DNA of 64,000 nucleotides from assembly GCF_009730915.1 (NCBI RefSeq), contig NC_052478.1, positions 15,483,808 through 15,547,807 on the forward strand, given 5' to 3'. The notes beneath the pieces are model-generated. The model was not told where the DNA came from. It saw only the letters and a program-made list of their open reading frames with translations, and did no database searches. Of the stretch, positions 15,405 to 47,286 are shown piece by piece. Source of the stretch: Dioscorea cayenensis subsp. rotundata. Taxonomy: Eukaryota; Streptophyta; Magnoliopsida; Dioscoreales; Dioscoreaceae. Position numbers and translations under genes: made by a program. Numbering within the stretch: the first letter of the stretch is position 1; each line of letters begins with the position of its first letter.

Positions 15405-15816
15405 AGTAGTGTGCACCACACTCAAGAGCACCCAGTATTTTTAATCACATTGATGAGAGTTGAGAGACCCATTGATGTTAGATTAGACAAGGTTAAAGAG
15501 AGTTGAGTCATAACTCAGAGATAGGAGAAATTTCACCCGATTCTCCCTATTAAGTTAATCCTATATTTGAGTTTCACTATGTGCAAAGCAATTGTATTTG
15601 CCATAATAAGTATAGTAATCTCTGCCGAAAGTTATATGGGATTAAGGGTTGCTTAGCCTATGAAAGTGACTAAACTATCTTTAGGTAAGTAGGAAGCTTA
15701 GATTACCTTCATGATTGGGACACCTATAGTGTTCAACCAATCATATAGAGCTTTGGCAAAAAGAGATTTCACCAAAGATTCGTTGGGGACTAGTTCTTGA
15801 TTGCCTTGAGCGGGGC
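15405..15816. repeat. Degraded LTR-like sequence
   Basis: No gene. Continues the older sequence interrupted at 8194 and includes phrases related to LTR tails ('attagacaaggttaaagagagttgag', 15480-15505). The boundary with the 5' LTR of the next element is indistinct. Confidence 0.3.
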
Positions 15817-17311
15817 ACAAAGGCAGTCATACTCATGTGTTCCGACTTGTGTAATACTAGCAAGATCTTCATCAATGTGATTTCATTGAAGACGCAACAC
15901 GATTTACCGCATGGATGTCTGCCCATTCATGTGGCATCGATGAAAACTGTGGATTCGGGAGTATTTTGGCGAGTACTATAGCAGTAAGTATTCACAGCTC
16001 GCAGAATCGACTTCTGAAAATTCACACAAGCATGTGGAAATTCAACACACCCATGTGGATTCATGATTCCAGCCCCTATAAAAGCCACGATTTCTGACGT
16101 TTTAGGGGATCCTTTTCTCATTTTTTCCCCATCTTTGGAGATGCTCACGGCTAGCGTTTGGAGTGACTTTGGCTAGGTCTTTAGAGGGGTTCTACGGCCT
16201 TCGATAGTGCGTTCCTTTTGAAGATAGTTATTAGGGAAGCTTTCATCGACATTGATTCGGCGAGGTGTGCCCTAGGCTTGATGAGGGAACTTTTGGAGAA
16301 GACGAGGCAACTCCACAAGACCATCGATACAGACTACGAGGGGGGTTTTTATTTATGGATTGCATGCTTTTACATTTGATTTCATTATTGATTATATCTT
16401 TCTCCATGGAGAGCTAAACCCCTAGTGGGTGCTTGGACTTGTAAACTCTAGGATAATTTTGTTTCATTGATCTTTCATTATGTTTCTTTAGTTGATGTTT
16501 TTAATTAAGTTCCAACCTTGAATGCTTGTTGAATTGATTTTCAATTTGAGTGACACTAGGGTTAAGAATCTATCTTGGTAATCCTTGTGGATGGGTGACT
16601 CACCATGAGGGTTAGACAAAGCTAGGTTGGAGAGGATTGAGAGGATGAGTCGAGAGGTAGCGGAACATCTCCTATCCCTTCTGATGTGATTCATCCTACC
16701 TCCACGTTCCAAGAGTTATTTGCGGTCACAATAGAGTGAAGTGCTAAGAGATAAATTCCACTGGGGCTTAGTCGTGCGAGCAAAAGAGTGAAGTGTTGAA
16801 GTAATCCTTAGTGCTGGGGGTTAATAATGACTAGTGGTCTTTCTCCTGGACCAAAGGGTTAGATCTATATTAGTGAATAGAGTTTATCACTGGGAGTCCC
16901 CAAATCAAGAGTATCCCTTTTCGCCGGGGCATAGGTAAGGGTTTGTCACAGTTGACCTTAGGTTTGGGACTGTATGTCTTAGGATTTCCATGACTCATTA
17001 GACATCAGTTAGGAGACATAATGATTGGTCTTGCATTTGAAACAATAGTCCTAGGGTGAGCAATGTCTGCGTGCCCCACTTTCTATCGATTGCCTCTCCT
17101 ATTATTCTATTGTGTCTCTTTTTTCTTTACCTTATTTCTATTTGCATTGATATTGTTCACACCACTCTAAAATCATCTTCACTATAGCTAAATAGCAATA
17201 CTTGTGTTTCTGAGCACTATTCCTTGTGGATATAACTACCCACTTACCAGGGTACTTTATTACTTTGACAACTCATGCACTTGCGGTATGCACTCGCAAG
17301 GGGTGGTGTCA
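15817..17311 (+). repeat. 5' LTR of pol-only gypsy element
   Basis: Nearly collinear with 20782-22221. Shows the 'ggggcacaaaggcagtcat' block, dyads at 16021-16062, TATA box TATAAAA at 16077-16083, the segment translating as SARCALGLMRELLEKTRQL (16246-16300) and the tail ending ...GGTGGTGTCA at 17311. Confidence 0.82.
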
Positions 17312-17318
17312 AAGTTTT

Positions 17319-17452: not shown

Positions 17453-20400
17453 TGATCAACATAACCAAAATATTTGACACAATTGCAGGAATGGTTGAAG
17501 ACATAGAACAGAAGATACAGTTATTTGCAATGCAGTCAACTTCATGTTGTTTCATGCCAGAGAAACTCATAAACAACCACCCTTTGGAAGAATCAGTTGT
17601 TGATCACATTAATGAGATTCAGGATACAAATTATGAGCTAGATAGTGTGTTGGATCAGTTTGAAAAGTCAGTGCTTTCATCTATGAGCTATCTTTTGGAA
17701 GAAAGTTTGGAAATGGTCCTTGCTTAGTTTAAATCTTCCTTTCAAGAACAAAGGCATGGAATTTTCTCATTGGGGGTGTCAAATACAGTACTGGAAATTT
17801 CTGAGATAGAAAATGTGGATGTTTTTGAAGATCATTCATAATCACATGCCCAAGCAGACGGTCTGGAGGACGTTTTCGAACAAGATTCAGCACAATTCGA
17901 GGAAATTCATAGATTGAAGGAAAGCAGATTAAGACCATCAATTAAGGAACCACCCGAGTTAGAGCTTAAGACTTTACTAGCACATTTGGAATATGCTTTT
18001 CTGATGGAAGAATCAAAGCTCCCTATTATTGTGGACTCAAACTTCTCTACTGATCAGAAGGACAAGCTTGTGAGCATGTTAAAGAGATATAAATCTGCCA
18101 TTGCTTGGAATATTTCTGATATAAAAGGCATCAATCCCTCATTTTGCACTCATAAAATCCTAATGGAGGATAATTACACGTCATTGATTCAACCTCAGAG
18201 AAGATTGAACCTAAACATGAAGGAAGTTGTTTAGGTGTAGGTGGTGAAGCTGTTGGATGCACGAATTATATATCCCATCTCTGACAGTGCTTAGGTGAGC
18301 CCAACTCAAGTAGTCTTGAAGAAGGAAGAAATGACAGTGGTGAGAAATGAAAGGAATGAATTAATCCCAACCAGGATAATCACAGGTTGGCGTGTATGTA
18401 TTGATTACAGGAGGCTAAACAATGTGACTCGAAAGGATCATTTTCCGTCACCATTCATTGATCAGATGTTGGAGCGATTGGCAGGGTATCAGTTTTATTG
18501 TTTTCTTGATGGAATATCAGGATGCTTCTAGATTCCTATTACTCTAGAAGATCAAGAGAAGATAACATTTACTTTCCCATGAGGGACCTTTGCTTATAGA
18601 AGAATGCCTTTCGAGTTGTGCAATGCGCCGGCGACATTTCAATGCTACATGACTTTATTTTTTATGGTCTCTTAGAAGACATTATGGAGGTGTTCATGGA
18701 TTATTTTTCAGTATTTGGAGACTCCTTTGACATTTGCTTAAGAAACTTGGAGAGAGTGTTGGTGAGATGTTAGGAAACAAATCTTGTTCTTAATTGGGAG
18801 AAGTGTCACTTTATGGTCCATGAGGGCATTGTCCTCGGTCACAAGATTTCCCAATTGGAGATGGAAGTGGATAAGGCAAAGATTGAAGTCATAGACAAGC
18901 TTCCCAAAGCAACAAATGTGAAAGGAGTTCATAGTTTCTTGGGGCATGAGGGCTTCAATAGGAGGTTTATCAAGGATTTTTCAAAAATCAGTCAACCATT
19001 GACAAAACTCCTTGAAAAAAATATGCCCTTTGGTTTCGGAGATGATTGCTTTCAAATTGTTGAAAGAGAAATTAGTGCAAGCACAGATTTTAGTCACGCC
19101 GGATTGGAACAAACCATTCGAGCTCATGTGCGATGCGAGTGATTATGCTATTGGAGTAGTTTTGGGGCAAAGGAAGGATAAACAGTTCCAACTGATTTAT
19201 TATTCTAGCAAGACTCTTACAAGTGCTCAAGAGAACTACACTACTACAGAAAAAGAGTTGTTAGTAGTGGTGGTTGCCTTTGACAAGTTCAGGCCATACC
19301 TCATCTTATCTAGGGTCACTGTATTCACTGATCACTTGCCACTCTGTTATCTCATGAGCAAGGCCGATGCTAAACCAAGGTTGATTCGTTGGATTTTACT
19401 GTTACAAGAGTTTGATATGGAGATAAAGATAAGAGAGGGACCGAAAATGTGGTTGTAGGCTGTTTGTCTCTATTAGAGGGTTGTGAGGGGCAAGAACCAT
19501 CAAACAAGGAAATTAACAATTTCTCTCCCGAGGAGCATTTGTATTCAGTCCAAAATTTGGCATCAACTGACACTCCATGGTTCACGAATTTTGCGAATTA
19601 CTTATCGGGAAGGTTCTTAAGCAGGGCCTCATCTTTCAACAAAAGAAGAAGTTTTTTATTGATTTAAAGAATTATTTTTTGGACGATCCATTTTTGTTTC
19701 AAATTTGTGCGGATCATGTGGTCCGAAGGTGTGTATCAAGGGAAGAAGGTTGGGACATACTTGCACATTGTCACTCAGGACCGGTTGGGGGGCATTATGC
19801 TTCAAATAGAACTGCTAAAAAAGCTTTGGATACCGGATTTTATTGGCCAACTTTATTTCAGGTGCACATCAGTTTGTTCTTCGACGCGACAGTTCTCAAA
19901 GAGAAGGAAATCTTTCATGACTGGATGAAATGACTCAGAATCCAATACAATTTTGCGAGGTATTTGATGTGTGGGGTATTGATTTCATGGAACCATTTCC
20001 AAAATCCAACGGTAATCAATTTATTTTGGTGGCTGTTGATTATGTTTCCAAGTGGGTGGAGGCCCAAGCTTTGCCTACTAATGACGCTCGGACCATGGTT
20101 AAATTTTTAAGAGGTTGTTTACTCAATTTGGAACCCCACGAATTATCATTAGTGATTGAGAAACTTATTTTTGCAACACTCAACTTGAAAATGTGTTGAA
20201 GCGTTATGGAATATATCATCACCTTGCTACCCCCTACCACTGACAGACGAGTGGTCAAGTGGAAGTCACAAATAGAGAGCTTAAAAGAATCTTGACAAAG
20301 TCACTAGAACAATGAAAGTGGGATTGGTTAGGACGCTTAAATGATATGCTTTGGGCTCATAGAACAACATATAAAACTCTGATAGGGACCACTCCCTACA

Positions 20401-20724: not shown

Positions 20725-22221
20725 ATATTTGGCTGTTTGCCAACCTCCATTGTGTTCAAGAAAATATACAAATTGGAGGGGCACAAAGGTAGTCATACTC
20801 ATGTGTTCCAGCTTGTGCAATACTGGCAAGATCTTCATCAATGTGATTTCATTAAAGATGGAACATGATCTACCACATGGATGTGTGCCCATTCATGTAG
20901 CCTCGATGAAAAGTGTGGATTCGGGAGTATTTTGGCGAGTACTTTAGCAGTTTACTGCAGCAAAAGTACTGTAGTGGTTATTGTTCACAGCTCACAGAAT
21001 CGACTTCTGGAAATTCACACGAGCGTGTGTGGGGATGCTTGATTCCAGCCCCTATAAAAGCCATGATTTCAGTCGTTTTAGGGGATCCTTTTCTCATTTT
21101 TTCCCCATCTTTGGAGGCACTCGCGGCTAGGGTTTGGAGAGGCTTTGGCTAGGTGTTTAGAGGGGTTCTACGGCCTTCGACACCATGTTCCTTCAGAAGA
21201 TAGTTAATGGGGATGTTTTTTTCTTTGGCATCGATTCGGCGAGATTTGCCCTAGGCTTGGCGAGAGAACCTTTGAAGAAGACGAGGCAACTCCACAAGAT
21301 CATCGATATGGACTACGAGGGGGTTTTACTTATGGATTGCGTGCTTTTACATTCGATTTCATTATTGATTGTATCTTGCTCCATGGATAGCTAAACCCCT
21401 AGTGGGTGCTTGGACTTGTAAACCCTACAATAACTTTGTTTCATTGATCTTTCATTATGTTTCTTTAAATGATGTTTTTAATTGAGTTTCAACCTTAAAT
21501 TCTTTTTGAATTAATTTTCCCTTAGAGTGACACTTGGGTTGAGAATCTATCTCGGTAATCCTTGTGGATGAGTGACACACCATGAGGGTTAGACAAAGCA
21601 AGGTTGGAGATGGTGAGTCGAGAGGTAGCAGAACGTCTGCTTTCCCTTCCGATGTGATTCATCCTACCTCCACATTCAAGAGTTCTTTGAAGTCACAATA
21701 GAGTGAAGTGCTAAGAGACAAATTCCACTGGGGCTTAGTTGTGCGAGCAAAAGAGTGAAGTATTGAAGTAATCCTTAGTGCTGGGGTTTAATTGTGACTA
21801 GGGGTTTTTCCACTGAGACCCTTTGCCTTTCCTCCTAGGCATAGTGTGAGGGTTTGTCATGGTTGACCTTAGGTTTGGGAGTGTGTGTCTTAGGATTTCT
21901 ACGACTCATTAGATATCAGTTAGGAGGCGAAATGATTGGTCTTGCACTTGAAACAATCGTTCTAGGGTGAGCAATGTCCGGGTTCCCCACTCTCTATCAA
22001 TTGCCTCTCCTATTATTCTATTACGTCTCTTTCTTCTTTATCTTATTTCTATTTGCATTAATATTGTTCACACCACTCTTAAATCATCTTCACTATAGCT
22101 AAATAGCAATACTTGTGTTTCCGAGCACTATTCCCTGTGGATATAACTACCAACTCACCAAGGTACTTTATTACTTCGACAACCCGTGCACTTTCGGTAC
22201 GCACTCGCAAGGGTTGTGTCA
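20725..22221 (+). repeat. 3' LTR of pol-only gypsy element (5'-truncated)
   Basis: Starts within the LTR at the phrase 'gccaacctccattgtgttcaag', about 230 bp in from the LTR start seen at 31577. Contains dyads, TATA box TATAAAA (21053-21059) and ends GGGTTGTGTCA at 22221. It lacks part of the tail repeat present in the 5' LTR near 16840-16920. Confidence 0.82.
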
Positions 22222-22287
22222 AAAATTTAAATGTATGTAGTGATTAGTCTATGAAAATGGTTAAGCAATAATCCACAATATAAGTAT

Positions 22288-22670
22288 CACTGCAACAAAA
22301 TTGGTCTACATCGACTAAAATTAGCGCCAAATTTATTAATTTATCACTATAAATTTATTTAGCGGCAAATTTTTTATATTAGTCATTATAGATATATTTT
22401 TAATGGCAAATTTTTAAGTTAGCTACTATAGACATAAATTTATTTATTATTTTTTAATAATAATTTCTATAGTGGCAAATTCATGTATTAGCCGCTATAT
22501 ATATATTAATTTAAAAGTGTAGCGTCAGATATTTATATTAGGCGCTATAGATGTGTTTTTAGGGGTAAATTTTTAAATTAGCTACTATAGGCACAAGATT
22601 TATTTAACAATAGTTTTTATAGTGGCAAATCTATCTATTCACCGTTATATATATTAAATTTAAAAAAATA
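22288..22670. repeat. Left terminus and subterminal repeats of gene-capturing CACTA
   Basis: Terminal CACTGCAAC followed by six or more degenerate copies of a unit around 'tagcggcaaattttt / gccgctatagat', in both orientations. Such subterminal motifs are the binding sites for the DNA-binding transposase in CACTA elements. Confidence 0.8.
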
Positions 22671-25600
22671 TATTTAAGGGTTGAGAATGATCTTCATTGT
22701 TTTTTATCATTTATTTAAATAAAAATTATATACTGAAAAAATTTATTATTCCAAATTTTTTGGATAATATTTTATCTAAGAAACTTTTAACCAATTTTGA
22801 AAACTTTTGATATATAATTTATAAGATTCGAAGGGTTTAGAAAGAAAAAAAAAACACACTAGATCTGAGACATGAGAGAGCATTGCGTTTTGTCCCTTTT
22901 ACAAACCCACTCTTTAACTTAATCCTTAAAAGCTTCATCCCATTAAACAAACCCATTGTTTAACCTAATCCTCACACGTGTCAACTCCCATATTCAAGCA
23001 CATATCCCATTTTTTCTAGAATTTTCCCATAATTTCAGAGAAGAGAGAGAGAGAAAGAGAGAGAGAAACACAAAGTGAGAAAGGCGGCGAGAGCTTCTTC
23101 TTGCGATGTTGTTTTAAATCTTGGAATCGAATGGATCATGTTTGCTTCTTTGATTGATCGAGAACCCCTGATTGGGTGCTGGAATCCTCTTTTCGGATCG
23201 AATGTTTGGTATGAGTTGATGTAATTGTTGCTTTTAATCGCTAGATTCTCTATGAATTGATCGGTTTTTAAGGGGGATTGTGTTGGGGGTTTTTGGTTGG
23301 ATTTCGTGGGTGATTTTGTTTGGTTTTTGGAAATTTAGGGGTTGTTTTTAGGGGAATTTGGGGAGGGATTGGAGTTTGTTTGTGTTGAGTGTTGGATTTT
23401 CGGTTTATAGGAATGTGGCATGGGTAGAGGGTATTTGCTGGATTGGAGCTAGCGGAAGGGTTCTTGAGATTTCTGGGGACTTTCGGACGGGTTAATTTGG
23501 AGTGGAGCAACGGGCATGATTCTGAATCCCATGTGAGTTCTTCATGTCTCTGTTCCTCTCTAGTTTTCCCTTTTTTTTTCTTTTGTCTTCAATTATTTTG
23601 TTGTTGTTTTTGTTTGATATCTATCTGATATTTAGAATCAAAGTTTAACTTGACATTCCATTCAATGCATATCCTCTAGAGTTAGTATCCGTTTTTTCCA
23701 TTTGATGATGATTTGACTGTATGTTCTTCAAGAATAAAGGCATGGCATGGATCTTTGCACAAGTAATGATTTTATCAGGGAAAGAATAGATCCATGTAAT
23801 TCCAATATAGTGAAATGATTGATTTATATTGATAAGAAGTCAAATTGTAAAAACTATTTTCCTTCATTGTGTTAATATTGTGTGGCTCATAGTGGGTAGA
23901 TGTCCAGAACACAAAAGCGATGGGTATGTTATATGAAATCTTGACGATGTTCTTTTAAATCATTGTTGAAGAAAATTTAATATGCGTCCTCTTTAACACA
24001 TGCTTAACACATAGAATGAGTGGTCTAGTGTGTCCGCATCACCCAGATTTATGGTCAAAACAAATTTCAACTAGTACTTTATAAATGTGTAAATTTTTGA
24101 ATCAGGTGCATAGTTTTGAGTTCCAACAATCTCGTTGATCAATGATAAGGTTAGTTGATTATTTAACTCTGACTAGACAATTGGTTTTGAAGATTTAAAA
24201 TTAGGGATTTTGAAGATACGTCTTCATGTAAAGTCTGGTCTGGGATTTGAGTGGAATTGCTGTAATAGTGTGGCTTTTGTGTCTTGTTATCGGCTCGGTA
24301 TACAAAATATGGTTGTGCAATATGTTTACTTTCAAAGAGTGTTCAGATTTGTCTCGGTGAATGGCCTTGTAGAAGTGTTTTTAAAAGTAAAAATTTAGTT
24401 TGATATCCAACGAGCTTGCTGATTCTTGTTAGATGTTTCATTTTTTTTTTCACTCGAGGTTGATTTCATATATAGTTCTTTTATGAGAGGATTATTTTGC
24501 AAAACAATAAGGTTATCAAATATTTATTTTAAGGTCTATTTGAAGGATTAGTTAGAGGATGTATTTGAGACATTCCAGTAAAATATATGCAGTTCTCTGA
24601 TGATAATTACCTAATTGAACTTCTATTACTTGAATCCTAATTAATCTATTTGATAGCTTGTCATCATGCTTGCATTATTTATTTTCTTCACAACACTATT
24701 ACAGCCTTAAGATTTCTATGGGGATTGAGTATATCTTGATGGTGTGTTAAGAATTCAAACTTCAAAGTGAAAGCAAACCAACAGTCTCCTTTAGGGGGAA
24801 TAAAGAAAAGAAAAGAAATTGTCTGCTCTGTGTTGTTGTTATGTTTGTCTTTGTCATAGAAAAATGGAGATGAGGTGATGTATGTGAGCGTATCTATAAG
24901 GTAATGCAATAGCTTTTGAAAGTATAAACGACATGCCTGAGTTTGAGAAGCTTATTATCTGTTCTCTAGTTAATAATGTTTAAGGTTTGAGTATGTTGGA
25001 TCCTAATCATGAGTGCTTTGGTTTCTGATTCTTGAGCCCTCTGAGGAAACTAAGGCATGTGTTTTTTCTGGCCATTATGGAATTAAGGATCTGAAATTTA
25101 AATCCAATTCAGATTGCTGGACTAATTCCTTGAGTTCTATCAACTTTGATTTTGGATATCAGAAATAAGAAATAGAATGTGCATGGAAGTAGCATGAGAA
25201 GTTCAGAAATAATCATTCATTTAGCAAAGTAGACTTATACTTAAGTCTTAGCTCTGGAAGAAAAGTGAAAAAAAGCCCTCTTAGATGAGAGTGATGAGTA
25301 GAACATCTTTTGTTCTCAAATCTAATTTCATGCTATGCTTCTAACCAAAATCTCCATTTATGTTATACCGATGTTTTGGGTAAAATATGTAGTTGGTGAG
25401 GAATGATGACTTTATCTCTTTTTTTAGTGTTAGTTACTTTTGGTTAATTATCTGATTTCTACATAAGTGCTTTGTCATAGCTATTCTAATTGCTTCAGCT
25501 GTTAGTGTTCAAATTTTCCATCCTTACTTATTTTTAGCGATGCAGATCTCTCCTTTTGCTGGAGTAACCCATCTATTGAAATATCATACCTTGCACATCA

Positions 25601-27824
25601 GTGAAGATCTCATCAGGTAATTGCTTTTTTTTACAACATTGTAACAGATTAACTTTGCTTGTTATTCTTGGGTTTGAAAGGAACTCTAAAGAGATCTGGG
25701 ATAAGTATTTCATGATCTTATAATAGTAGGATTTCATTCCACTATTTATTGATAAAAAGAACATTTTACCCTGATTATGTTGTAACTTTATGCAATTGAG
25801 TTGTTATTATAAAAATATCAATTTCTATATATAGTTCTGTCTGTTTCCTTTATTCATCTTTCTTATGGTGACAGGATTTCTATGTTGTGCATTACTAGGC
25901 AGACCAATCTATGGCATTCTATGAACTGATTAGATTATCATTTGTTATTAGTTCTCAAAAATCACCACCTGCACCTTTTTCACATTTGAACTCAAGCTTT
26001 CAATTAGCATGACATACTGATCATTCATATATGATTCATACAAAATTTGAAATTTTGTCTCTTTTGATTTAGCCACACTATAAACACCCAAAGGAAAAAC
26101 ATTCCATTAATTTTAGTTGCACTCTTTTATTATAAAGGAGGCCATGACTAAGTCTTGAATTTGTTTAAAGGAAGAATTTTATTTATTTTAATTTTTTTTA
26201 ATGAAAATAAACTAAAATTTCACTAATCTTTTATTAATCCAAAAACAACATGAACAACTAGTATGAACCGCTGAAGAGATCCTTATAAGTGCCAGTATCC
26301 ATACATAAATAATAAATCATGTAATTAAATAATTCTATTAAATATTGCCACACCTTCTAGAATGATAATTTGGTTTGTATATTTTAACATTTATACAATT
26401 GTTCTCTATTGAAAGAACATCTGAGCTGCTGTCTATCATCATGATAACATAAACGCAAGTACAAATGGTTCCTCAATTATTGTTGATAGCATGTGCTTCA
26501 AGAATTGCCATCATCACCAGTTCCGCCCTCTTGATGTACTGCATTGGTAGAAGCATACAGTAAGTTAGAGAATTATGGTACAATTGTGTATGCCATTTTA
26601 ACTCATAACAACACATTCATTCAGCTGTCTCTTTTTACTTTATGAAATCCAATTAATTAGTCTTATTCTGTTCTTATTTAATAAAATAAATAATTAAAGC
26701 TTGGTGGGATTTGATGTTAACTGTTAAGCTATCATTCCTTCGGTAGAGAATGAAATCTATTCCTGCTGGTTTTTTAACAATGTAATAAAACATTCAAGTT
26801 TGTCAGTTTAGGTTATAGCTCCTTCTTGTTGTAGTTCCTTTGGTGGAGACTTACATTTCTTCTCCTTGATTATGGGAAATAATTGATGTGTGTAATACAA
26901 GAGGATTGCTCAAGGAAATGCAATGTTGCTGTGTGGATGCTAAGGTGGTTTAAGTTCTCAGTGTTTCTTTGCATTCTTAGAATAACAAATATCAAGTAGA
27001 CACATGCAGCTAGATACATGTATGAATTGATAAGTTTGCTTTAGCTGACTGGCTTGCATGTTTTGTTAGATGATTGTAAATGTATTGCTATCCTAGTATG
27101 GTTACAATATGATACTTAAAATTAGATATAGGCTACTAAATGATGTGATTTCCTTGCCTGAATCTCTTCTTCTGTCTTTTCTATTATTTTCCAATATATA
27201 TTTTCTTTCCTTCATATAAGTCTGGTATTTTTGAAGGAACTCTTCATGGTATAATGTGGACTTGTGTTTGAAGTATGACTATTTTTGGATTGACTAACTT
27301 TTATACATTCTTCACAATTAGATGTGAGGTTTGACTTATTGAATTTTTTTATTGAATAGGAACTGATCATCAATACATAGTTGATTCCACGCGTGCTGCA
27401 ATTTCTAGATCATTCCCTGAACCTAATCTTCATTTATTGCAAAGGTATGGCTGATAGTCATGTGATAAATTACCCCATTTTGGATGATTCATTTGGATTT
27501 ATTAATATGCAAAGGTGAGCAAGCTTATTTCAGTAATATATATATATATATATTACCACTATTTACTTTCTTTCGTTGATTTTCATTTACCTTGATTTTG
27601 TTTAGGAATTCAATGTAATTTTCTTTCCTTGAATGGTTCTTGGTGGCCACCATAAAATAAGACCTGTTTTTTGAAGTCATACAGCTCTTCAATTAATCAA
27701 AGGCTCTAACCATTGATTAGAATTCCTGACTTTGATGATTCTCATGCACTATTTTGTTCTGTGTATTGTTTATTTCTAATGCTTTTTTCAAAAGTTTATT
27801 TACTAAATTAGAAAAAGAACTCAA
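22671..27824 (+). other. Internal region with unidentified exon-like pieces
   Basis: No gene could be identified. 23035-23110 is a purine (GA)n microsatellite followed by GC-richer sequence that looks like a transcribed 5' leader. 23443-23530 is open (MELAEGFLRFLGTFGRVN) and ends at a donor-like CAT|GTGAGT. 25546-25617 is an exon-like block, framed by CAG and GTAATT, reading ISPFAGVTHLLKYHTL. 27360-27445 is another, framed by TAG and GTATGG, containing STRAAISRSFPEPNLHLLQ. I do not recognise these peptides. The rest is AT-rich intron-like sequence. Confidence 0.4.
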
Positions 27825-28402
27825 TTCCCTTTCATCTGAAACTTGGCACAGAACGCATTGAGACTGTACAAGACTTCCTCAAACTTTTGGTCATTGATTC
27901 TGATCGCCTGAGAGTGGTATATATATATATATAAAGTTTTCATTCATCTTTGGACACAGATTTATATAAGTTTCAATTAAAATACACAAAAATAATATGT
28001 TATTGACCTTGGTATATCAGATACTATCATCTATGTCAGACAAGATGTGGGAGGGCACTGTTAATCACGCAAGAACATGCCCCATAGGGTCAAAAAAGAT
28101 ATTTGTTCAATGATCCTTATGGTAATACCGTCTTTTTGAATCCAATATGTGAAGTAGTAGGTGAAATCTTACATGGCAATCTGGTCTATACCCATAATCA
28201 ACTACCAATACAGCAGAAAGTAAGCATTAGGATTTCAATCAATTGAAAGAATAATTAGAATTCAGATATTAAATGAACACCAATGACTTGACTTCTTTTT
28301 TGGCAAGCTTATGTGCAGTCTCTGGCAAAACAGGCATACTACAGCTGGGATAAGCTGGAAGAGACTAAAATTTTCTTTCTAGCAAGTGCTCTCCTTCCAA
28401 GT
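27825..28402 (+). pseudogene. Captured CBP60-like gene fragment
   Basis: Three exon pieces of a calmodulin-binding protein 60 (CBP60) family gene, a plant-specific DNA-binding/defence regulator family. Exon piece 27842-27917 reads ERIETVQDFLKLLVIDSD; piece 28021-28219 starts MSDKMWEGTVNHARTC, frameshifts after CPIG, and continues NDPYGNTVFLNPI; piece 28319-28402 reads SLAKQAYYSWDKLEE. These match, in order, the conserved central domain of CBP60 proteins (WE-TVEHARTC block and the K-AY--W block). The introns keep AG acceptors at 28020 and 28318 and a GT donor at 28220. N- and C-terminal parts are missing; the frameshift makes it non-coding. Retained introns mean it was copied from genomic DNA. 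Family identity is from memory of the conserved motifs. Confidence 0.7.
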
Positions 28403-28756
28403 AATTAAACTGATTCACTACTCTGTTGTGATAATTATATAATCATTATATTTTTAAAGTTCTGTTCAAGTTCTAACATCTTAGAAAACATAATAGTAGA
28501 GCTGCAAGCACAACAATGACTGATGGCGTCTTCTTCATGGCATGCTACCAATCAAGAGATAGCTACTGTAACTAAGTTTCAAATTGAAGGACCTGATGAA
28601 TCTCAACTCTTTGAAGTAGAGTTTCTCTTGGATTTCTTTGGATCAAAATCTCAGCCTGATTGATTTTAATCACATTGATTAAAAAACGAACAAGATGTTG
28701 CTGATCAAGATGTACATCCTAAGGATGTAAATTATTGGTAATGAAGGTGGGTTATT

Positions 28757-28800
28757 ATGTTTGTTCGTAATATATATATATATATATTACGAACAAACAT
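28757..28800. repeat. 44-bp perfect palindrome with AT core
   Basis: Arms ATGTTTGTTCGTAA and its exact complement flank a (TA)n core, making an uninterrupted inverted repeat. It lies between the CBP60-like and ENGase fragments. Confidence 0.9.
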
Positions 28801-28883
28801 CTTTCACTAAATCTGTGCTCTTTTTAAAAAATAAATAGATAATTTTGTTCAAGCTTAAATTTGTGTGGATTCTTGGATTTTGA

Positions 28884-29657
28884 AGGTTTTGGGGACTTTC
28901 ATCATTGAATGGGATGATGGTAAAGTGATATGTGACACTATCCTTACCTCAAAGGACCTTTGCTCATATGTATGCTGAGAGGTTGGCTGCATTAGCTGAA
29001 GCTCTGGGTTTTGATGGCTAGTTGGTGCTTTATCTTTCTTTCTTTGAGATTTATTTTGCCAGTAATTATTTTTGCATAATAGTAGAAAATTGGATTTTAG
29101 TAGTGTTTGTTCTCTTGAATTTTCAAAGGCTCTTTGTTTCTAGTTCATATGAGTTTGACACATAATATTTACTGCAGCTAAACTTAGAAGTTAATTTTAG
29201 CTTGGATCGAATCAGTAACTTGAAAGAATGTTAGCCATTTAACCTCAGTTATGCATTCCTCTGTGTCGGGATCTTTGGTCATATAGTAACTTCTCTTCTC
29301 TTTAAGATTCCTATTATTGAAGTTTCTTAAACTTTCAATCATTTTGCTATAGGTATGATGCTGTAACCATAGATGTAGACTAATCTGGAAAAATTGACTT
29401 AATGAGAAGAACAAGCCTTTTTTTGATGCCTGTGATGGTATATTTGTTAATTACAGTTGGGAGATTAGTGGTTTTTATTTATTTATTTTATAACTTGATT
29501 TGAATTCTTTTCTCATGTAAAAGTCTTGAATAAAGAGTTAGGAGACTAGGAAAATTATCCAAAGCTTTCAGCTGATGTTGCTGGGGAGAGGAGATATGAT
29601 GTGTACATGGGCATTGATGTGTTTGGCCAAAACACATTTGGTGGTGGAGAATGGAAT
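28884..29657 (+). pseudogene. Captured cytosolic ENGase gene fragment
   Basis: Exon pieces of cytosolic endo-beta-N-acetylglucosaminidase (glycoside hydrolase family 85), which trims free N-glycans in the cytosol. 28884-29015 reads VLGTFIIEWDDGKVICDTIL then, after a frameshift, HMYAERLAALAEALGFDG followed by a stop. 29190-29450 is decayed but shows YDAVTI and, in the next frame, LNEKNKPFFDACDGIFVNY. 29545-29657 reads NYPKLSADVAGERRYDVYMG, IDVFGQNTFGGGEWN and ends at a GT donor. The order matches the GH85 catalytic domain; the part before VLGTF and everything after GGGEWN are missing. Introns are retained between pieces. Stops and frameshifts rule out an active enzyme. Confidence 0.85.
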
Positions 29658-30062
29658 GTATGTTTTCCTTGATACTTATTTGATATCACATTGTTGTTTA
29701 TGTTTAAGGTTTAGATAATTTTTTTCCTAACAGTTTTATGTGGCTGAATATTTGTCTTATATGTTTCATTTATTGAAGTTTCATTTTTTTCTGTAATTTA
29801 TTTTTTAATAGAACTGATTTAAATTTAGCTTTAAGAAATTCAATGTCAAAATGTAAGTCTCCATTTCCTTTTTCATAGATCCTAATTTGTTTTGTTCTGT
29901 ATTTTTTGTTCAAACTAAAATGCATTTAAAATCTTTAGCCTCAAGCCGATTCCTATTATGAAAAAAAGTCTGTCATCAGCATGGACACTCAAAAGCCAAG
30001 GAATGTGATGGAAAATCCTTCTACTATGAAATTAGAGACAAATGCAGTAACTTTGACAAGTA

Positions 30063-30106
30063 CTTCTCTAGTTTCCAATGATGATCAGTGTACTGCAGAG
30101 TCGCTA
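30063..30106 (+). repeat. 44-bp direct repeat, left copy
   Basis: Starts CTTCTCTAGTTTCCAATGAT and ends GCAGAGTCGCTA; matches 30999-31042 with two mismatches. It lies 160 bp upstream of the annexin fragment, which the two copies enclose. Confidence 0.9.
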
Positions 30107-30264
30107 GCTGGCATTCATTTAATGGACTGTGTTTTGTTTAAAGATATTGACTCTGTCTTCCAAGTCTAATGACACATATAAAAGATAGAAATTTGATGAA
30201 TGGCTTCAAACATAGCTTAATCTTAGGAATGACTTCAGTGTGTGTGTATTAGTATCCAAACTAA

Positions 30265-30990
30265 AGATTTATGTTTGCATTACTAGGGTGGGGAACTGAT
30301 GATAAGACAGTAATTGCAATCATGGCATACAGGAACTCAACGCAAAGGAAACATATTCAAGAAGCCTATGAAGAACTCTACAAAGAGAGTCTCACCAAAA
30401 GGGTTGAATTTGAACTCAATGGTAATCATGAGGTACTTGCATTGACTTGCATTTTTATCTCATCTTAATCTTATCAGATCCATATACATAAAATTTTATC
30501 TCTCAATGCAGAAAGTTGTGTATCGATGGATGTTCAATCCAATTGAAAGAGATGTAATTCTTGCTAACATAACACTGTAGAAGACTATTGATAACCTTGT
30601 TATCATTGAAATAGCCTGCATAAATTCACCTGCTGATCTTCTTGTAGTGAAGCAAGCCTATCAAGCTCTGTACAAATAGTCTTTGGAGGAAGATGCGGTT
30701 GCATGCACTTCCGGCGACTTGCCAAGGCATGTCATTAAACTAGAACTACCATGTTAGCTCTTTTCATATAGTTCTATGCTAAAAAATTGTGTTGCAGCTC
30801 CTCACTAGATTATTGGGCACATATTGGTACAATGGCGATGAGATCGACGTTAAATTAGCTCAGTCAAAGGCCTTGATTATCCATGATGCTATCAAGTGCA
30901 AGAACTATAACCATGAAGATATCATCAGAATACTGACTACTCAGAGTAAAGCACAACTCAATGCTACATTCAATCATTATACTATTTGAG
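30265..30990 (+). pseudogene. Captured annexin gene fragment
   Basis: Exon pieces of a plant annexin (calcium-dependent phospholipid-binding protein). 30268-30432 encodes most of repeat 1 with the calcium-site motif GWGTDDK and AYRNSTQRKHIQEAYEELY; a GT-AG intron runs 30433-30511. 30512-30727 continues RWMFNPIERDVILANI, then a stop, then repeat-2 sequence SPADLLVVKQAYQALYK followed by a stop. After a second intron, 30798-30989 encodes repeat 3 (YNGDEIDVKLAQSKAL, YNHEDIIRILTTQSKAQLNA). The N-terminal residues and the whole of repeat 4 are absent. An open stretch just upstream (29981-30168, MDTQKPRNVMENPSTMK) is not annexin and is unidentified. Non-functional; captured with introns. Confidence 0.88.
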
Positions 30991-30998
30991 ATTACTGT

Positions 30999-31042
30999 CT
31001 TCTCTAGTTTCCAATGATGATCAGTCTACCGCAGAGTCGCTA
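30999..31042 (+). repeat. 44-bp direct repeat, right copy
   Basis: Second copy of 30063-30106, beginning 10 bp after the annexin piece ends. Confidence 0.9.
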
Positions 31043-31162
31043 ATAGTATTTAAATGCTTTGGAGAGGCTATTTGTTATACTATTTGTGTTTTGCCATTTG
31101 ATACTACTATTTTTATGGTGTAAAATTAATAAATTAAAATATTAATATTGTCTTTTATAATT

Positions 31163-31190
31163 TCTCATATATATATATATATATATATAT
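31163..31190. repeat. (AT)n microsatellite
   Basis: Uninterrupted alternating AT run of about 26 bp within AT-rich sequence ahead of the right subterminal repeats. Confidence 0.9.
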
Positions 31191-31249
31191 CTTTGTTTGT
31201 CTATATTAGAAATAGAGTTGATTAGTTATTAAAATATCTACTCAATTTA

Positions 31250-31576
31250 CAAGCCTTATAACGGCAAATACTATAAGGTACCAAAAAATCTAAAAGACTT
31301 ATAGCGGCAGAAATATTTTTTCACTATAAAATTTATAGCGATAAAATTTTTCGTAGCTATAGGGATATTAAACAAATCTATATAATTTATAGCGGCAAAA
31401 ATGTTGTCATTATAGAATTTATAGCGGCAAAAATTTTCCACCGCTACAGATTATTGTGTAGTTATAATCTTAATAGATGGGATAGCAGCAAATGTGTACA
31501 TTTGTTGCAAAAACCATATAGCGATTGAGGTTTTAGTGGCTAATTAGCTATTTGCCGCTATAATAATATTGAGGCT
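31250..31576. repeat. Right subterminal repeats of gene-capturing CACTA
   Basis: Seven or so copies of 'ttatagcggcaaaa'-type units, in both orientations, related to those at 22300-22660. The array resumes after the inserted solo LTR at 33423-33480 and ends with the terminal TTTTTCTTGTAGTG. Confidence 0.82.
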
Positions 31577-33417
31577 TGATAAGTGCTTGTGTATTAGTAA
31601 TACGAAGTATTCTTTTCTTATTATGAGCATTACTTTTATTAGGTTTTAGCGCTAATGCATGTGTATTTATGAACTTTTGTGCATGAAGGGTTGTGAAGCC
31701 AAATATGAAAGAAAAAAGCCAAAGTGGATTGCGATTGTACTTTGTTGATGAAGTCTTAGAGTGAACAAATGTGAAGACACAAGTTGTGATTGAAGATACG
31801 TGAATGTGTGCCAACCTCCATGCGCTCAAGCAATTATAATGGTTTGGAGGGGCACAAAGGCAGTCACATTTGCGTATCCCGACTTGTGCAATGATAGCAA
31901 GATCTTCACTAATGAGATCTTTTATTGAAGAAGCGATGCGATTTATGACATAGACATGTGCCCGTTTATGTTGCCTCGATGAAAAGTATGAATTCGGGAG
32001 TATTTTGGCTGAGTACTATAGCAGGTTGCTTTAGCAAATCACTGCAATAATTTACTGTAGCAGTTACTGTTTACAGCCTACAAAAAATTAGATTTCCAGA
32101 AATCCACACCAGTGTGTGGAAATTTCACACGCTCGTGTGGATTCCCGATTCCAGCCTATATAAAGCCGCGAACAACCCCGATTTCATCATTTCTTCTATC
32201 TTTTCTCCAACTTTTGGGTAGCCGGCTGCTAGGGTTTAGTGTCTTTGGCAAGTCTTTTGGAGTGGTTCTACAACTTCGACACTGCGTTCTCTTGGAAGAT
32301 AGTCATTGGGGGAGCTTTCGTCAGCACCTATCCGGCGAGGTGTGCCCTAGGCTTGATAAGGGGTCCTTTGGAGAGGACGAGGCAACTCCACAAGACCATC
32401 GATACGAATACCGAAGGGGTTTTCCTATGGATTACATGTTTTTACTTTCGATTTCATTATTGATTGTATCTTGCTCCATGGAGAGCTAAACCCTAGTGGG
32501 TACTTGGATTTGTAAACCCTAGGATGCATTTGTTTAATTAACCTTTTATTATGTTTTTCTTAATTGATGTCTTTAATTGAGTTCCAATCTTGAATGCTTG
32601 TTGAATGATTTCTCCCTTAGAGTGACACTAGGGTTGAGAGTCCATCTTGGTAATCTTTGTGAGTGAGTGAGTGACACACCATGAGGGTTAGACAAAGTAA
32701 GATTGGAGAGGGTCGAGAGGGTGAGTCGAGAGGTAGTAAAGCGTCCCCTTTCTCCTCCGATGTAATTTATCCTACCTCCACATTCCAAGATTTCTTTGCG
32801 GTCACAATAGAGTGAAGGGTTAAGGAATGAACTTCGTTGGGGCTTAGTTACATAAGCAACAGAGTGAAGTGTTGATGTGACTTTAACACCTGGGGCTTAA
32901 TTGTGACTATGGGTCTTTCGCCTTGACCAACGGGTTAGATCTACATATAGGAATAAGATTTATCACTTGGAATCCCTAGAGCTTCTTGCAACTTTACACA
33001 GTGTGAGGTGTTGAGACGGGTTGATTTTTCCGCCGGGGTATAGTGTAGAGTTATTCATGGTTGACCTTAGGTTTGGGACCGTGTGTTTAAGGATGTCCAC
33101 GACTCATTAAGCATTAGTTAGGAAGCATAATAGTTGGTTTCGCACTTGAAGTAGTAATCCTAGGAGGAACAATATCCGAGTACTCCACTTTTATCGGTTG
33201 TCTTTCCTCTCATTTTATTGTGCCTCTTGTTCTTATTTTCTTTAGTTTGTTTGCATCAATCTTTATCCACAACATCATTATTTCATCTCCACTTAGTTAA
33301 GTAGCAATCTTGGTGTTTCTATTCCTTATTCCCTGTGGATACAATACCCCACTCATCTGGGATTTATTACTTCAACAAACCCGTGCACTTGTGAGTCACA
33401 CGCAAGGGGTGTTGTCA
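31577..33417 (+). mobile_element. Solo gypsy LTR inside the CACTA, TSD AGGCT
   Basis: 1,841-bp LTR, starts TGATAAGTGCTTGTG and ends GGTGTTGTCA, flanked by a perfect AGGCT duplication (31572-31576 and 33418-33422). Contains dyads CACACCAGTGTGTGG (32104) and CACACGCTCGTGTGG (32127), TATA box TATATAAA at 32157-32164, and an open frame 32112-32489. The alternative frame 32239-32463 contains the peptide ARCALGLIRGPLERTRQL found in other LTR copies. No primer site or internal region. Confidence 0.92.
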
Positions 33418-33483
33418 AGGCTAAAATGGAACCTATAGGGGCAAATTTTTCTGCCTCTATATGTCCTTTTTCTTGTAGTGTAT

Positions 33484-35110
33484 GATTTTCTTTGAGTGTG
33501 AACAATAATAAAAAAAATTTAAAAATTATATCTAATCATAAATTTATTTGTAAAACAGGGCCTCCATATTTAAGAAGAAAAATTGATATTTATTGATTAA
33601 ACAAATTCTAGAAATTAACATGTTATTTAAAAAAAAATAATGACACAAATTAATATTGTATACCATGACCCGGTAACAAAAATTGAGGTAACCTCACTTT
33701 TAGCGGGAAAATGGTGAGTAGAATTCCATTTCAATGCTAACCAAACACCAGAAATCGTTGAAGTCACACTTCAATATTTTCAACTCCACTATTGAAACTG
33801 AGAAAACGGTTGGAGAAGTGACACTTCCCTAACCAACCAAAGACACAGAATTCCCTAAGCAACCAAAGGCACACAATTGACGCTTCTCAATGATGTCAAA
33901 CTTCCAATGAATTGACACTTCCAAACTTTCATGATTTCGGTGGAGCACTTTCTGAACATAATATTCCCATATTGTCCATGTTGTTCTCCATTTTGGTTTT
34001 TATGATTTAATTCATTATAAAATGCAGACAATTGTTTGTTTTGTATGGTACCCAAATTCCATTATTTGATTCAATCCTAGACATTTTGCATGCATAATTA
34101 GGTGATGTTTAGATTACTACAAGGAGGATTCAATCCATAAATGCTAACTTTGCCTACTTAATTTTTGACATGACTTCCAAATCCATTGTATAGAACAATG
34201 CAAAATAGAGGAACAAGATGAACCAATTAACCAAGGGTTCTCTTAAGTCAACTGCAAGTTTTGAACCCTTCTTGAAAGGCTAGATGTTATGCGCCATAAT
34301 TTTCATGAATCATTAGTTAAATTCAGTTTCTTGTTTCATATGTTGATAATTGTTGAAGAAGATGATCTCAACATGTTGGTGAAAAAGAGCTACTCACTTT
34401 TGTTAACTGGGTTTTTATATATGACTCTTTCTAGAAATCAATGCCTTTCCGTGGGTTATACATGAAATTTTTGTTAGTGAAAATTGAGATATGCAACCTC
34501 TTGTTGTCACATCTACTCTATTGTTGAAAATAAAATCTTTGCAACTAATTTTCCTTTTAGATAGAAGCCCTATATAAAAACTATAGATTTTTTCTTTTAT
34601 TTGTACAATAAATACATAAACTTTTCCATTGCTAATTACTATTGGTGCCGCATTATATATTATTTGAGAACTTGGCAAACTTTTTCACTTCTATTGAATT
34701 TTATGTTAATCAGTGATACCACGAGGAATTTGTCACATATATGCTTTAAGGGTCCTAATTCGAAAGTTGGAAATGTTAGAAGCTATAAATGGCACAACGA
34801 CCTCAACAAGAAACTAGAAAGAAGGACTTTATTCTAAAGTAAAATATATAAAAATACTTTTTATTTATTCTTCACATCGTACAAAATACAACAAACTTAA
34901 CATTCCTTAACTCTAAACTCCTAAATCAATAACTCTAAACCTTAGTTAGTTTATTCACATAGAATACACAAATTGTATGTGTATATATGTATGATTTATG
35001 AAACACCAATTTTATGTACGTTTTAAAAGTTATGGAAAAATACACGTCTTTTTAAATTCAAATGTATTAACCATGAAAAAAACTTAAAACCCCAATTTTT
35101 TAAAAATACA
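33484..35110. other. Intergenic, no gene seen
   Basis: No recognisable coding sequence. 33690-33850 has repeated phrases about 'aagtgacacttcc/ttgacacttcc' suggestive of a small degraded repeat. 34835-34935 resembles, in reverse complement, 60040-60150 (shared 'ttattta-ttcttca' and 'aacttaacattccttaactc' phrases), so a short interspersed or MITE-like repeat is probably present. Confidence 0.4.
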
Positions 35111-36982
35111 TGATAAGTGTTTGTGTGATAGGAATGCGAAGTGTTCTCTCCTTATGATGAGCATTACTTTTATCAGGTTTTAACGCTAATATATGTGCAT
35201 TAATGTTACTTTCATGCATATAGGGTTGTTAAGCCGAATGTTAGAGAAAGAAGCTAATATAGATCGTGAATGCACCATTTGGAGGAAATATTGAGAAGGA
35301 TCAAACACGAAGACATAAATCGGGCTCAAGATGCGAGAATGTGTGCCAACCTCCGTGTATTCAAGTTAAGACAATGATTTGGAGGGGCACAAAAACAGTC
35401 ATATTCGAGTATCCCGGCTTGTGCATTAATAGCAAGATCTTCACTGATGAAGCCGTTATTGAAGAAGCAAAGCGACCTATGACGTAAATGTGTGCCCATT
35501 TATGTTACCTCGATGAAAACATAGATTCGGGAGTGTTTCGGGCCGGTACTACAGTAGAGCACTTTAGTAAATACTGTAGCAATTCATTATAGCAGGTACT
35601 GTTCACAGCCGACTGAGAAAAGTGAATTCCAGATAATCCACACGGGCATGTGGAAATTATCCATGCCCGTGTGGAAACTCCACGAGCCATGTGGTGAATC
35701 CACAGGGGTGTGTGGATTCCTGATTCCAGCCCTATTTAAGGTCGATTTCAGCCACGATTTCAACATTCTTTTCTCCATCTTTTCCCCAACTTGAGAGAGG
35801 GTGGCGACTAGGGTTTGGAGAGGTACTGGCTAGGGATTGGGAGAGATTCTACGGCTCCGACATCGTACTCCGTTTGGAAGAAGGTTAGTGGCAGAGCTTT
35901 CGTTGACACCGATCCGGCGAGGTGTATCCTAGGCCGGATGAAGGGACCCTTGGACGAGTAGAGGCTTCTCCACAAGACCATCGTCACTACTATCGAGGGA
36001 TTTTTCTATAGATTACTTATTTTTACATTCAATTTCATTGATTGTAACTAGCTCTATGGAGAGCTAAACCCCCTAATGGATACTTGGATTTGTGAATCCT
36101 AGGATGTATTTGTTTCATTAAACCTTTCATTATGCTTTCTTTAATTGATATTCTAATTGAGTTCCAATCTTGAATACTTGATTGTGTGAATATTTCCTTA
36201 GAGTGACACTAGGGTTGAGGATTCTTATTGGTAACCCTTGTGAGTGAGTGACACACCACGAGAGTTAAACAAAGCTAGATTGGAGAGGGTTGAGAGGGTG
36301 AGTCGAGAGGTAACGGAGCGTCCCCTTTCCCCTTCGATGTGATTTATCCTACCTGCATTTCCTCGAGTTCTTTGCGGTCATAGTAGAGTGAATGGGCTAA
36401 GGGATGACCTTCCATTGGGGATTTGTTGCAGAGGCAACGGAGTTAAGCATTGAAGTGATTTTAGCACATAGGACTTAATTGTGACTAGGGAACTTCTACC
36501 TGGACCAAAGGGTTAGGTCTACATTTAGGAAGATGATTTATCACTTGAATCCCTAGAACTTATTGCGATTCTATGCGAGTGCGAGGTTCAGAGATTGTTC
36601 AATTTCTCCTCCAGGACATGTATAGAGTTAGGTATTATTGACCTTAGATTTGGGACCATGTATTGAAGGATCTCCACGACTCGTTAATGTATTAGTTAGA
36701 AAGCATAATAGAGGGTTTTGCACTTGAAACGATTGTCCTAGGCTGAGCGATATCCGGGTACCCCATTTTTATCGATTGCCTTACGTGTGCTCTCTTTCTT
36801 GTCTCTTTTACTTTTGTTACGTTATATCTTGTCACACAATTATTATTCACTTTACGCTTATTTAAGAAACAATTTAAGTGCTTTTATTCCCTACTCCCTG
36901 TGGATACGATACCCATTCATCTGGGATTTATTACTTCAACAAACCTGTGCACTTGCGGGACATATGCAAGAGGCGTTTGTCA
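35111..36982 (+). mobile_element. Solo gypsy LTR, TSD ATACA
   Basis: 1,872-bp LTR of the same family as 31577-33417. Starts TGATAAGTGTTTGTG, ends GGCGTTTGTCA, flanked by perfect ATACA (35106-35110 and 36983-36987). Carries a striking dyad cluster at 35638-35720 (CACACGGGCATGTGGAAA and variants), TATA-like TATTTAA at 35733-35739 and the R-U5 tail. No internal region. Confidence 0.92.
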
Positions 36983-37004
36983 ATACAACTAATCGTTTAA
37001 CCCA

Positions 37005-37550: not shown

Positions 37551-38087
37551 GATTAACTAAATATGGCTTAGAAAAAATATATAATTTGGCAGTATGTTGA
37601 AGAATTGGATGGTTGTTTAAGTACATGTTTTGTTTCTATGATTTTTCCAGGGATGCTCCAAAAATCAATTCTCATTTAGCTGGGATATAAGGACATCACA
37701 TTGAGATATTTCATAAATTTTCTGAAGGCTTGCAAGCTAGAGCCTATTTGGTGGTTGGAGGAATTCCTAGTAAATAAAAGAAGAGCACCATTGATTCAAG
37801 TAATAATATGAATGGTGCAACTAATTTACCTCTTGCATTTAACTATTCAAAAGTTTTGCAGCCATAGCTACTATTTTCAAGAAAAAAATAAAGATAATAC
37901 ATGATCATTTATTCGGAATGGTTTTTGTAGTGAATAATATTCCTTTTATTATTGTGCAAACACCATCTTTCCTTAAATTTGTGCGAGCTTTTTGAGAACA
38001 TGGTGTTGGATATAAAGTGCCATGCTATTCATGTCTTCACCTAAATTATGTCTAGAAAGTAGAATTAATACAGGTGAGTATGTAAAG
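37551..38087 (+). pseudogene. hAT transposase relic, segment 1
   Basis: Upstream part of a plant hAT transposase. 37560-37690 is a decayed BED zinc-finger-like region (IWQYVEELDG, then NSHLAGI), and 37915-38087 matches the segment before the catalytic domain (PSFLKF, EHGVGYKVPCY in a frame with stops). It stops at 38087 where the copia element inserted and continues at 43198. Many stops; recognised mainly from order and from segments 2 and 3. Confidence 0.65.
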
Positions 38088-38632
38088 TGTTGGTGCTGAG
38101 GTGGTGTCGTGATTGAAGCCTGGTGCAGCGCGTTTGTCATCCAAGTCGTGGGAAGCATGGTGGATCTCTGAACTGGAGCATGACGGCGGCATGGATCGAG
38201 GATACGCATCATGGAGTGAAGGAAAGGCTGGGCATGGTTGCTCAGGAGAACCGAGAAGACTTTTCTTTTGAATTTTTGACTATCTTTTTATATAGTATCT
38301 GTGTTAAGGTTGCTGGCCAATCAGGTTTAACTTAATCAATGATGCTGGCCAATCAGGTGAAACTTAATGGACTAAGATAGCCAATCAGCTTGTTAGTTGT
38401 GTTATAACATTTCAACTTACTATTGATTATTAATAGTATGAAGACTAATAGCTCATTGGTTGGATGAGCAAGTATTATTCATTCTTTCTCTCTTGACTTG
38501 TGTTGACTGAGAACCAGAGCTTGTTCTTCTCGTCTTCTTGACAGGTGCTTCTTTTAAATCTTCTCTTCACCTACGTCTTTCTCTTTAGCAGAGTACGAAG
38601 ATGGAGGCTTGCCGACGTCGCAATCCTCAACA
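38088..38632 (+). repeat. 5' LTR of copia element
   Basis: 545 bp, TGTTGGTGCTGAGG...ATCCTCAACA. Contains a near-duplicate 'gctggccaatcaggt' pair (38312, 38345) and a TATA-like TTTATATAG near 38286. Confidence 0.95.
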
Positions 38633-38635
38633 AGG

Positions 38636-38647
38636 TGGTATCAGAGC
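38636..38647 (+). other. Primer-binding site, initiator-Met tRNA
   Basis: TGGTATCAGAGC, the standard plant copia primer site, three bases after the LTR end. Confidence 0.95.
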
Positions 38648-38693
38648 TTCAGGGTGGTCGTGACGAGTAAAGCCCCCGTAAGTCTCATGCAGC

Positions 38694-41600: not shown

Positions 41601-42640
41601 ACACTCATTTTAAGCAGCATGGTTACATGAAGAATGATACTGAGCATACACTCTATAAGAAGGAAGATGGAGAAGGAAATTATGTTCTGATCAGTATCTT
41701 CGTGGATGATATGGTGTATACCAGTGCATCACAAGGTTTGATCAAGCAATTCAGAAGGAAGATGATGCGTACATTTGACATGTATGATCTAGGTGAATAA
41801 ACTTTTTCTAGGATTTGAGATATTACAATCAAGGGAAGGAATTCTTATCTTACAGAAGAGATACATTGAAGAGCTCCTTTCACAAATGAATATGAAACAT
41901 TGCAAGCATGCTGAGACCCCGATTGGAGTAAATGAGAAGTTCTCAGAAGGAGAGGAGGAGGAACTAGCAGATGGTACATTGTATAGAAGTCTCATTGGCA
42001 AATTACTCTATATTGTGCATTCTAGGCCAGATATATGTTATACTGTTAGCTTCTTATCAAGGTTTATGAGCAGGCCATGTGTAGAGCATCTCAATGCAGC
42101 GAGGAGGGTCTTGAAGTATCTTACAGGAACTCAGTCGCTTGGCTTAGTCTATTTTAATGAAAACAGTGGAATTCTTGAGGGGTTTACAAATAGCGATTAG
42201 GGAGGTTCTCTTTGTGACAGGAAGAGCACCTCAGGAGTATTGTGCAGGATTGGAACATGTTCAATTACCTGGTCCTCGAAGAAGGAGGACGTTGTGGCTC
42301 TCTCATCAACTGAGGCCGAGTACATTGCGGCTACCTCATCAGCATGTCAATTGGTTTGGCTGAGAAGGATACTAGGAGATTGTGGAAGGATGATTGAAGG
42401 GTCCTCTGTGTTATGGTGTGATAATCAGTCAGCTATAGCTGTTACGAAGAATCCAGCGTATCATGGGCGAACCAAACACATAGATGTTAGGTTCCACTTC
42501 ATTCGCAGTCTTATGACAGACGGGTCGATCACACTTTAGCATTGCAACACAGGGGATCAACTGGCTGATATTCTAACCAAGCCATTACCCTCAGTGAAGC
42601 ACAGAAGGTTGCGAGCTCAACTGAGAATCATAGAGCTTCA
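38694..42640 (+). pseudogene. Copia gag-pol relic
   Basis: Gag from about 38694 (HCIPVFKGED; AREDEA region; zinc knuckle CFHCKKYGHVKAEC at 39461-39500). Protease at 39600-39640 reads WLVDSECSNQMTG, with Glu where the family has Gly in the D-S/T-G active site. Integrase: GAG-pre-integrase HRRLGHLNYRSLE (40018), catalytic MDICGP (40203), RSDRGGEF (40387) and NGVVERKNRT (40490). RT: WELIELPFGKKVVGLKWVY (41206), DVRSAFLNGE (41441), FVDDM (41699). RNase H: KYLTGTQSLGLVY, ALSSTEAEY (42297), ADILTKPLPS (42568). Stops at about 39049, 39370, 39781, 39787, 40571, 41021, 41150, 41525, 42198 and 42537; frameshifts near 38730, 40375 and 41795. Confidence 0.95.
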
Positions 42641-47212: not shown

Positions 47213-47286
47213 TTTGCTTGAACAGGTACTGTTATATAAGAAAAATATACAAATACATATCAGAAGGAACTAAAAAGCAACGTATG

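Follow-up and report, generated by a model that had tools for sequence, protein, structure and literature searches.

A CACTA-type element carrying fragments of CBP60, ENGase and annexin genes in the yam Dioscorea cayenensis subsp. rotundata

In soybean, maize, wheat and Arabidopsis, single CACTA elements are known to have captured several host genes. Tgm-Express1, a soybean CACTA element of ~5.7 kb in the wp allele, sits in intron 2 of an F3H gene and holds fragments, introns included, of five unrelated genes; its chimeric transcripts were demonstrated by cDNA (PMC1947982). Pack-CACTA elements holding DNA from several loci have been described in Arabidopsis and, mostly, in maize (PMC8903248). 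On wheat chromosome 3B, 140 CACTA capture events were counted, some with exon shuffling, of which 46% had a likely functional structure and the rest were pseudogenes (PMC4290129). Here we analyzed a 64,000-nucleotide window of the yam Dioscorea cayenensis subsp. rotundata (D. rotundata below; contig NC_052478.1, positions 15,483,808 to 15,547,807), in which the interval 22288-33480 (11,193 bp) has CACTA-type ends and contains pieces of three unrelated genes, for CBP60, ENGase and annexin. This observation was confirmed and the original prediction, which had read the interval as a gene-capturing CACTA-type transposon, is supported: we regard it as very probably a non-autonomous Pack-CACTA element of 9,347 bp.

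Like Tgm-Express1, the yam element belongs with the CACTA superfamily and combines exonic and intronic parts of several unrelated host genes (PMC1947982). It differs in size (9.35 kb), the genes involved and in its site, which adjoins a retrotransposon. CACTA terminal inverted repeats (TIRs) around host coding DNA and a multi-locus cargo are shared with the Pack-CACTA elements of Arabidopsis and maize, and the element fits that class. Annotation of those elements relied on groups of copies and excluded singletons, whereas one copy of the yam element is known; a direct repeat around one captured piece, present in yam, is not mentioned for them in the available sections of PMC8903248. Captured genes and fragments are likewise held by the wheat chromosome 3B CACTAs, although that work concerned wheat families and was a whole-chromosome survey with expression data (PMC4290129). 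Judged by titles, with most subscription journals outside coverage, no report of a CBP60/ENGase/annexin combination in a CACTA element was found, and the literature search returned no title on gene capture by CACTA in Dioscorea. The novelty claimed in the original prediction is nevertheless weaker than it was put there, since a CACTA element with several unrelated, intron-containing fragments was published in 2007 at the latest (PMC1947982).

The ends were as predicted, with TIRs, a flanking TAT pair (Table 1) and subterminal repeats. Both a 3-bp target-site duplication and subterminal repeats are given as CACTA features in PMC8978399; in the yam element TAT is present on both sides, and direct and inverted subterminal repeats extend over several hundred bp. 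The 12-bp motif TATAGCGGCAAA has 14 matches at ≤2 mismatches in the 802 bp that make up the ends and none in the 8,550-bp interior, where three copies have exactly 3 mismatches. In 1000 order-1 Markov control sequences it averaged 0.225 matches (maximum 2), a control that is not independent, as the motif was chosen from these very ends; more weight attaches to its restriction to the ends. Within the left array, 6/6 minus copies (≤3 mismatches) begin 20 bp after a plus copy, so that the array consists of inverted pairs. The predicted empty site, with the flanks joined through a single TAT, is AATATAAGTATGATTTTC.

As an amendment to the original prediction, 1,841 bp of the interval are a solo long terminal repeat (LTR) nested in the right end, which was inserted later than the CACTA-type element. 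Relatives of this LTR occur in the window at 35111-36983 (75%) and, reversed, at 57848-59653 (79%). Subtraction of the LTR and one copy of its target duplication gives the size of 9,347 bp. At the end of the left flank lies an element whose repeats, at 15812-17313 and 20778-22223, are 82% alike. It has RNase H-like reverse-transcriptase domains at 19003-19455, and we take it to be of Ty3 type.

The cargo was identified with Pfam, which found Calmod_bind_M and Calmod_bind_C (CBP60), Glyco_hydro_85 (ENGase) and Annexin inside the element, and placed by tblastn with the homologues P0001 (CBP60, 444 aa), P0003 (ENGase, 668 aa) and P0121 (annexin, 310 aa). All three pieces have the same orientation and each shows intron-like interruptions, in agreement with the original prediction; block 28524-28660 is the C-terminus of CBP60. 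These intron-like breaks in the coding sequence point to capture of genomic DNA. With joined queries the best-scoring homologues were from D. alata for CBP60 (E 1.5e-74) and annexin (E 4.2e-93) and from D. rotundata for ENGase (E 2.8e-49, a record labelled low-quality); the annexin piece also matched annexin D1 in the PDB (E 9.1e-55). Parental genes thus exist elsewhere in the genus, with Dioscorea proteins of 444 aa (CBP60), 668 aa (ENGase) and 310 aa (annexin), in a set of fetched sequences that left out D. rotundata CBP60 and full-length D. rotundata annexin.

Stops and frameshifts show decay of the gene pieces. The CBP60 piece has a frameshift near 28083-28100, the ENGase piece has stops at 29019-29021 and 29395-29397 and frameshifts near 28958 and 29229, and the annexin piece has stops at 30578-30580 and 30677-30679. 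For the most part the cargo can no longer yield protein. The effect most likely to arise from it would be accidental chimeric splicing, or small RNAs derived from sequence common with the parents. A perfect 44-bp AT-rich palindrome lies between the CBP60 and ENGase pieces, at 28757-28800.

Between its CACTA ends the element has host coding DNA without a transposase. No transposase family, including Transposase_21, was found by Pfam among 94/106 open reading frames (ORFs), namely 69/81 plus-strand ORFs of ≥28 aa and 25/25 minus-strand ORFs of ≥45 aa, and within this scope the predicted lack of transposase was borne out. Six scanned ORFs agreed with the ORF listing save, presumably, for the first residue. 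Weak Pfam matches to seven families (E 0.019-0.48, 28 ORFs) and to three families (E 0.003-0.009, 66 ORFs) were judged to be chance. A tnp2-type transposase is a feature of autonomous CACTA members only; its absence is expected of a non-autonomous member and no bar to CACTA membership.

On the Pack-CACTA reading, the element keeps the ends needed by CACTA transposase, and its interior carries copies of genomic DNA from three genes, namely the 3' part of CBP60, a central part of the ENGase gene and about the first two thirds of the annexin gene, plus further stretches. The pieces would have been collected in steps from different chromosomes, and the element, of which one copy is known, would have moved as one unit, an autonomous member of the same family providing the transposase in trans.

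Several points weigh against this reading. The right end starts CACTA, but the left end starts CACTG, one base off in the first five, and TIR similarity fades past 13 bp, from 11/13 to 12/17 and 14/22. In AT-rich DNA a TAT pair carries little weight, and 12 plus-strand ORFs lay outside the transposase scan. A second CACTA-like element of the window (44537-55634) has 0 copies of TATAGCGGCAAA at ≤2 mismatches. A 12-bp match at the annexin 3' border, considered as filler DNA or templated repair, was rejected as not above chance (1 seen versus 0.23 expected within 150 bp). Finally, a second D. zingiberensis annexin, P0126, is on a contig equal in size to that of the D. zingiberensis ENGase.

This last point bears on the possibility that three adjacent host genes have degenerated where they stood, between coincidental CACTA-like ends, for which the common orientation of the pieces and their preserved intron-like interruptions also speak. 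P0126 is, however, the more distant annexin (60.5% likeness to the fragment versus 77.4% for P0124), and the closest D. zingiberensis homologues, CBP60 (P0015), ENGase (P0004) and annexin (P0124), lie on three contigs of 97.3, 72.3 and 62.5 Mb. The CBP60 and annexin contigs also differ in D. alata (26.5 vs 25.4 Mb) and D. sansibarensis (8.0 vs 11.8 Mb); the D. rotundata ENGase contig measures 21.9 Mb. As the homologues are on different contigs, the pieces are not neighbours in D. zingiberensis, D. alata and D. sansibarensis as far as seen. In addition, every piece is truncated and the clusters of TATAGCGGCAAA copies are confined to the two ends. The original prediction had named neighbouring decayed genes in other species as a refuting outcome; the contig placement came out in favour of capture, and decay in place was rejected as very improbable.

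Identity to the nearest Dioscorea homologue over gap-free columns was 86.6% of 157 for CBP60, 87.5% of 144 for ENGase and 84.7% of 177 for annexin. At sites differing between D. alata and D. sansibarensis, the fragment agreed with D. alata at 15 and D. sansibarensis at 6 in CBP60 (n=24), and at 5 and 2 in annexin (n=9); the ENGase fragment shared 21 sites with D. rotundata and 2 with D. zingiberensis (n=27), all these being small numbers from hand-typed fragment sequences. If the compared genes are orthologues, capture would postdate the split from D. zingiberensis and perhaps lie close to, or follow, that from D. sansibarensis.

The annexin piece is enclosed by a 44-bp direct repeat with a 27-bp exact core, the left copy of which terminates the exon-like open block 29939-30106. 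Exact repeats of ≥14 bp numbered 0.7 per shuffle in 60 order-2 Markov shuffles. The repeat suggests that the annexin piece was inserted separately, perhaps by break repair, with this one insertion as the basis. The piece may derive from repair inside block 29939-30106 that left 44 bp on each side, which makes the repeat a possibly informative insertion scar. In rice, foreign segments were inserted at 58/94 transposon excisions, with an average of 13 bp and a maximum of 123 bp (PMC4423477), far shorter than the annexin piece here.

All capture could instead have resulted from fusion of neighbouring CACTA elements via aberrant excision followed by remobilisation, with no break-repair insertion. 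This is the published Pack-CACTA model, proposed for Arabidopsis (PMC13317346, section 7; PMC8903248). The interior, which has no TATAGCGGCAAA copy at ≤2 mismatches in 8,550 bp, argues against it, as does the 44-bp direct repeat around a single piece, a feature not predicted by the model in those accounts. Internal ends could have been lost, though, and fusion and break repair may both have acted at different steps. We rate fusion as the sole route a serious candidate, though one with less than an even chance. More tentatively, and with a smaller likelihood, the cargo may have been gathered stepwise by internal break repair, the annexin piece being pasted into a captured exon with a 44-bp duplication and the resulting exon-annexin fusion now being transcribed as the chimeric gene that NCBI annotates. 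If true, this would be a sequence-level trace of a DNA transposon collecting fragments of unlinked genes, a process which, according to a 2026 review, might involve a yet undiscovered mechanism (PMC13317346, section 7).

The annotated gene concerned is NCBI P0123, annexin D1-like, 161 aa, from D. cayenensis subsp. rotundata on a contig of 22,086,263 bp. The sole GT-AG combination found reproduced P0123 letter for letter from the window, which would accordingly contain either the P0123 locus or an identical copy of that locus. The model omits the annexin exon carrying both stops. One might conclude that the element holds a working chimeric gene, with 49 aa from outside the annexin piece fused to annexin repeats, expressed and under selection. 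P0123 is exactly this product, obtained from canonical sites with the double-stop exon skipped, and of the genes captured by CACTA elements on wheat chromosome 3B, 26% were transcribed and 13% combined expression with dN/dS <0.4 (PMC4290129). Much of the annexin core is nevertheless missing from the product, a gene model does not amount to expression, and stops and frameshifts break the CBP60 and ENGase parts. We consider such a working gene improbable.

Multi-gene capture by a CACTA element is hereby documented in a yam, and a public gene model (P0123) is indicated to be transposon cargo. Thanks to the 44-bp repeat, other yam genomes can be used to test in what order and in what way capture took place.

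Table 1. Features of the element and its borders (window positions).
Feature	Position	Strand	Basis or remark
Target-site duplication, left copy TAT (presumed)	22285..22287	.	sequence
Left TIR CACTGCAACAAAA	22288..22300	+	equals right end at 11/13 positions
Left subterminal repeats, motif TATAGCGGCAAA	22320..22649	.	7 plus and 6 minus copies, ≤3 mismatches
Leader-like stretch with GA-rich tract	22870..23533	+	sequence; borders by eye
Exon-like block	25542..25617	+	no significant database match
Exon-like block	27360..27445	+	no significant database match
CBP60 piece, residues 264-444/444 of P0001, to C-terminus	27830..28660	+	tblastn E 6.2e-68; Pfam; intron-interrupted
ENGase (GH85) piece, residues 122-278/668 of P0003	28880..29657	+	tblastn E 5.7e-55; intron-interrupted
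Exon-like block, last 44 bp repeated at 30999-31042	29939..30106	+	open stretch; no significant match
Gene model giving P0123	29981..30989	+	exons 29981-30128, 30287-30432, 30798-30989
44-bp direct repeat, left copy	30063..30106	+	42/44 identical to right copy
Annexin piece, residues 23-207/310 of P0121	30277..30980	+	tblastn E 1.6e-90; intron-interrupted
44-bp direct repeat, right copy	30999..31042	+	flanks annexin piece on 3' side
Right subterminal repeats	31257..31562	.	two further copies at 33434-33461, past nested LTR
Solo LTR nested in right end, TG...CA	31577..33417	+	1,841 bp; flanked by AGGCT at 31572-31576 and 33418-33422
Right TIR CACTACAAGAAAA	33468..33480	-	sequence comparison with left end
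Target-site duplication, right copy TAT (presumed)	33481..33483	.	sequence

The original prediction had also suggested that two exon-like blocks (25546-25617 and 27360-27445) and a leader-like region came from other genes. This may be so but was not confirmed: no significant matches were obtained, the leader being checked by Pfam only. Blocks 25542-25617 and 27360-27445 had no match at E up to 10 among 23 candidates, and their PDB matches (E 0.22 to 0.25) were judged to be chance, as were those of block 29939-30106 (E 0.43 to 1.5), an additional exon-like block absent from the original prediction. None of the three blocks showed a Pfam family above cut-off. The leader-like stretch gave no convincing plant family by Pfam, with weak matches not assignable to individual ORFs, and an Rfam scan of 22000-34000 returned 0 matches at gathering score.

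The second CACTA-like element (44537-55634) is bounded at either end by CACTACAAGAAA, identical over 12 bp, and has TAC flanks. Its minus strand contains interrupted ORFs for Transposase_21 (48688-49740, 49744-50181), DUF4218 and DUF4216, and a tandem array repeating about every 90 bp (54666-55549) lies just inside the right end of the element. Because it has no TATAGCGGCAAA copy at ≤2 mismatches, the element is no evident transposase source for the first element, and it was rejected as such; six of its ORFs gave no tblastn match to the first element at E up to 0.1. A distant relationship of the two CACTA elements is possible. Between them, at 38087-43200, lies an element with 549-bp repeats at both ends (96% identical) and an RVT_2 domain at 41153-41524, presumably of Copia type. 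A DUF659 ORF (43123-43494) overlaps its right end.

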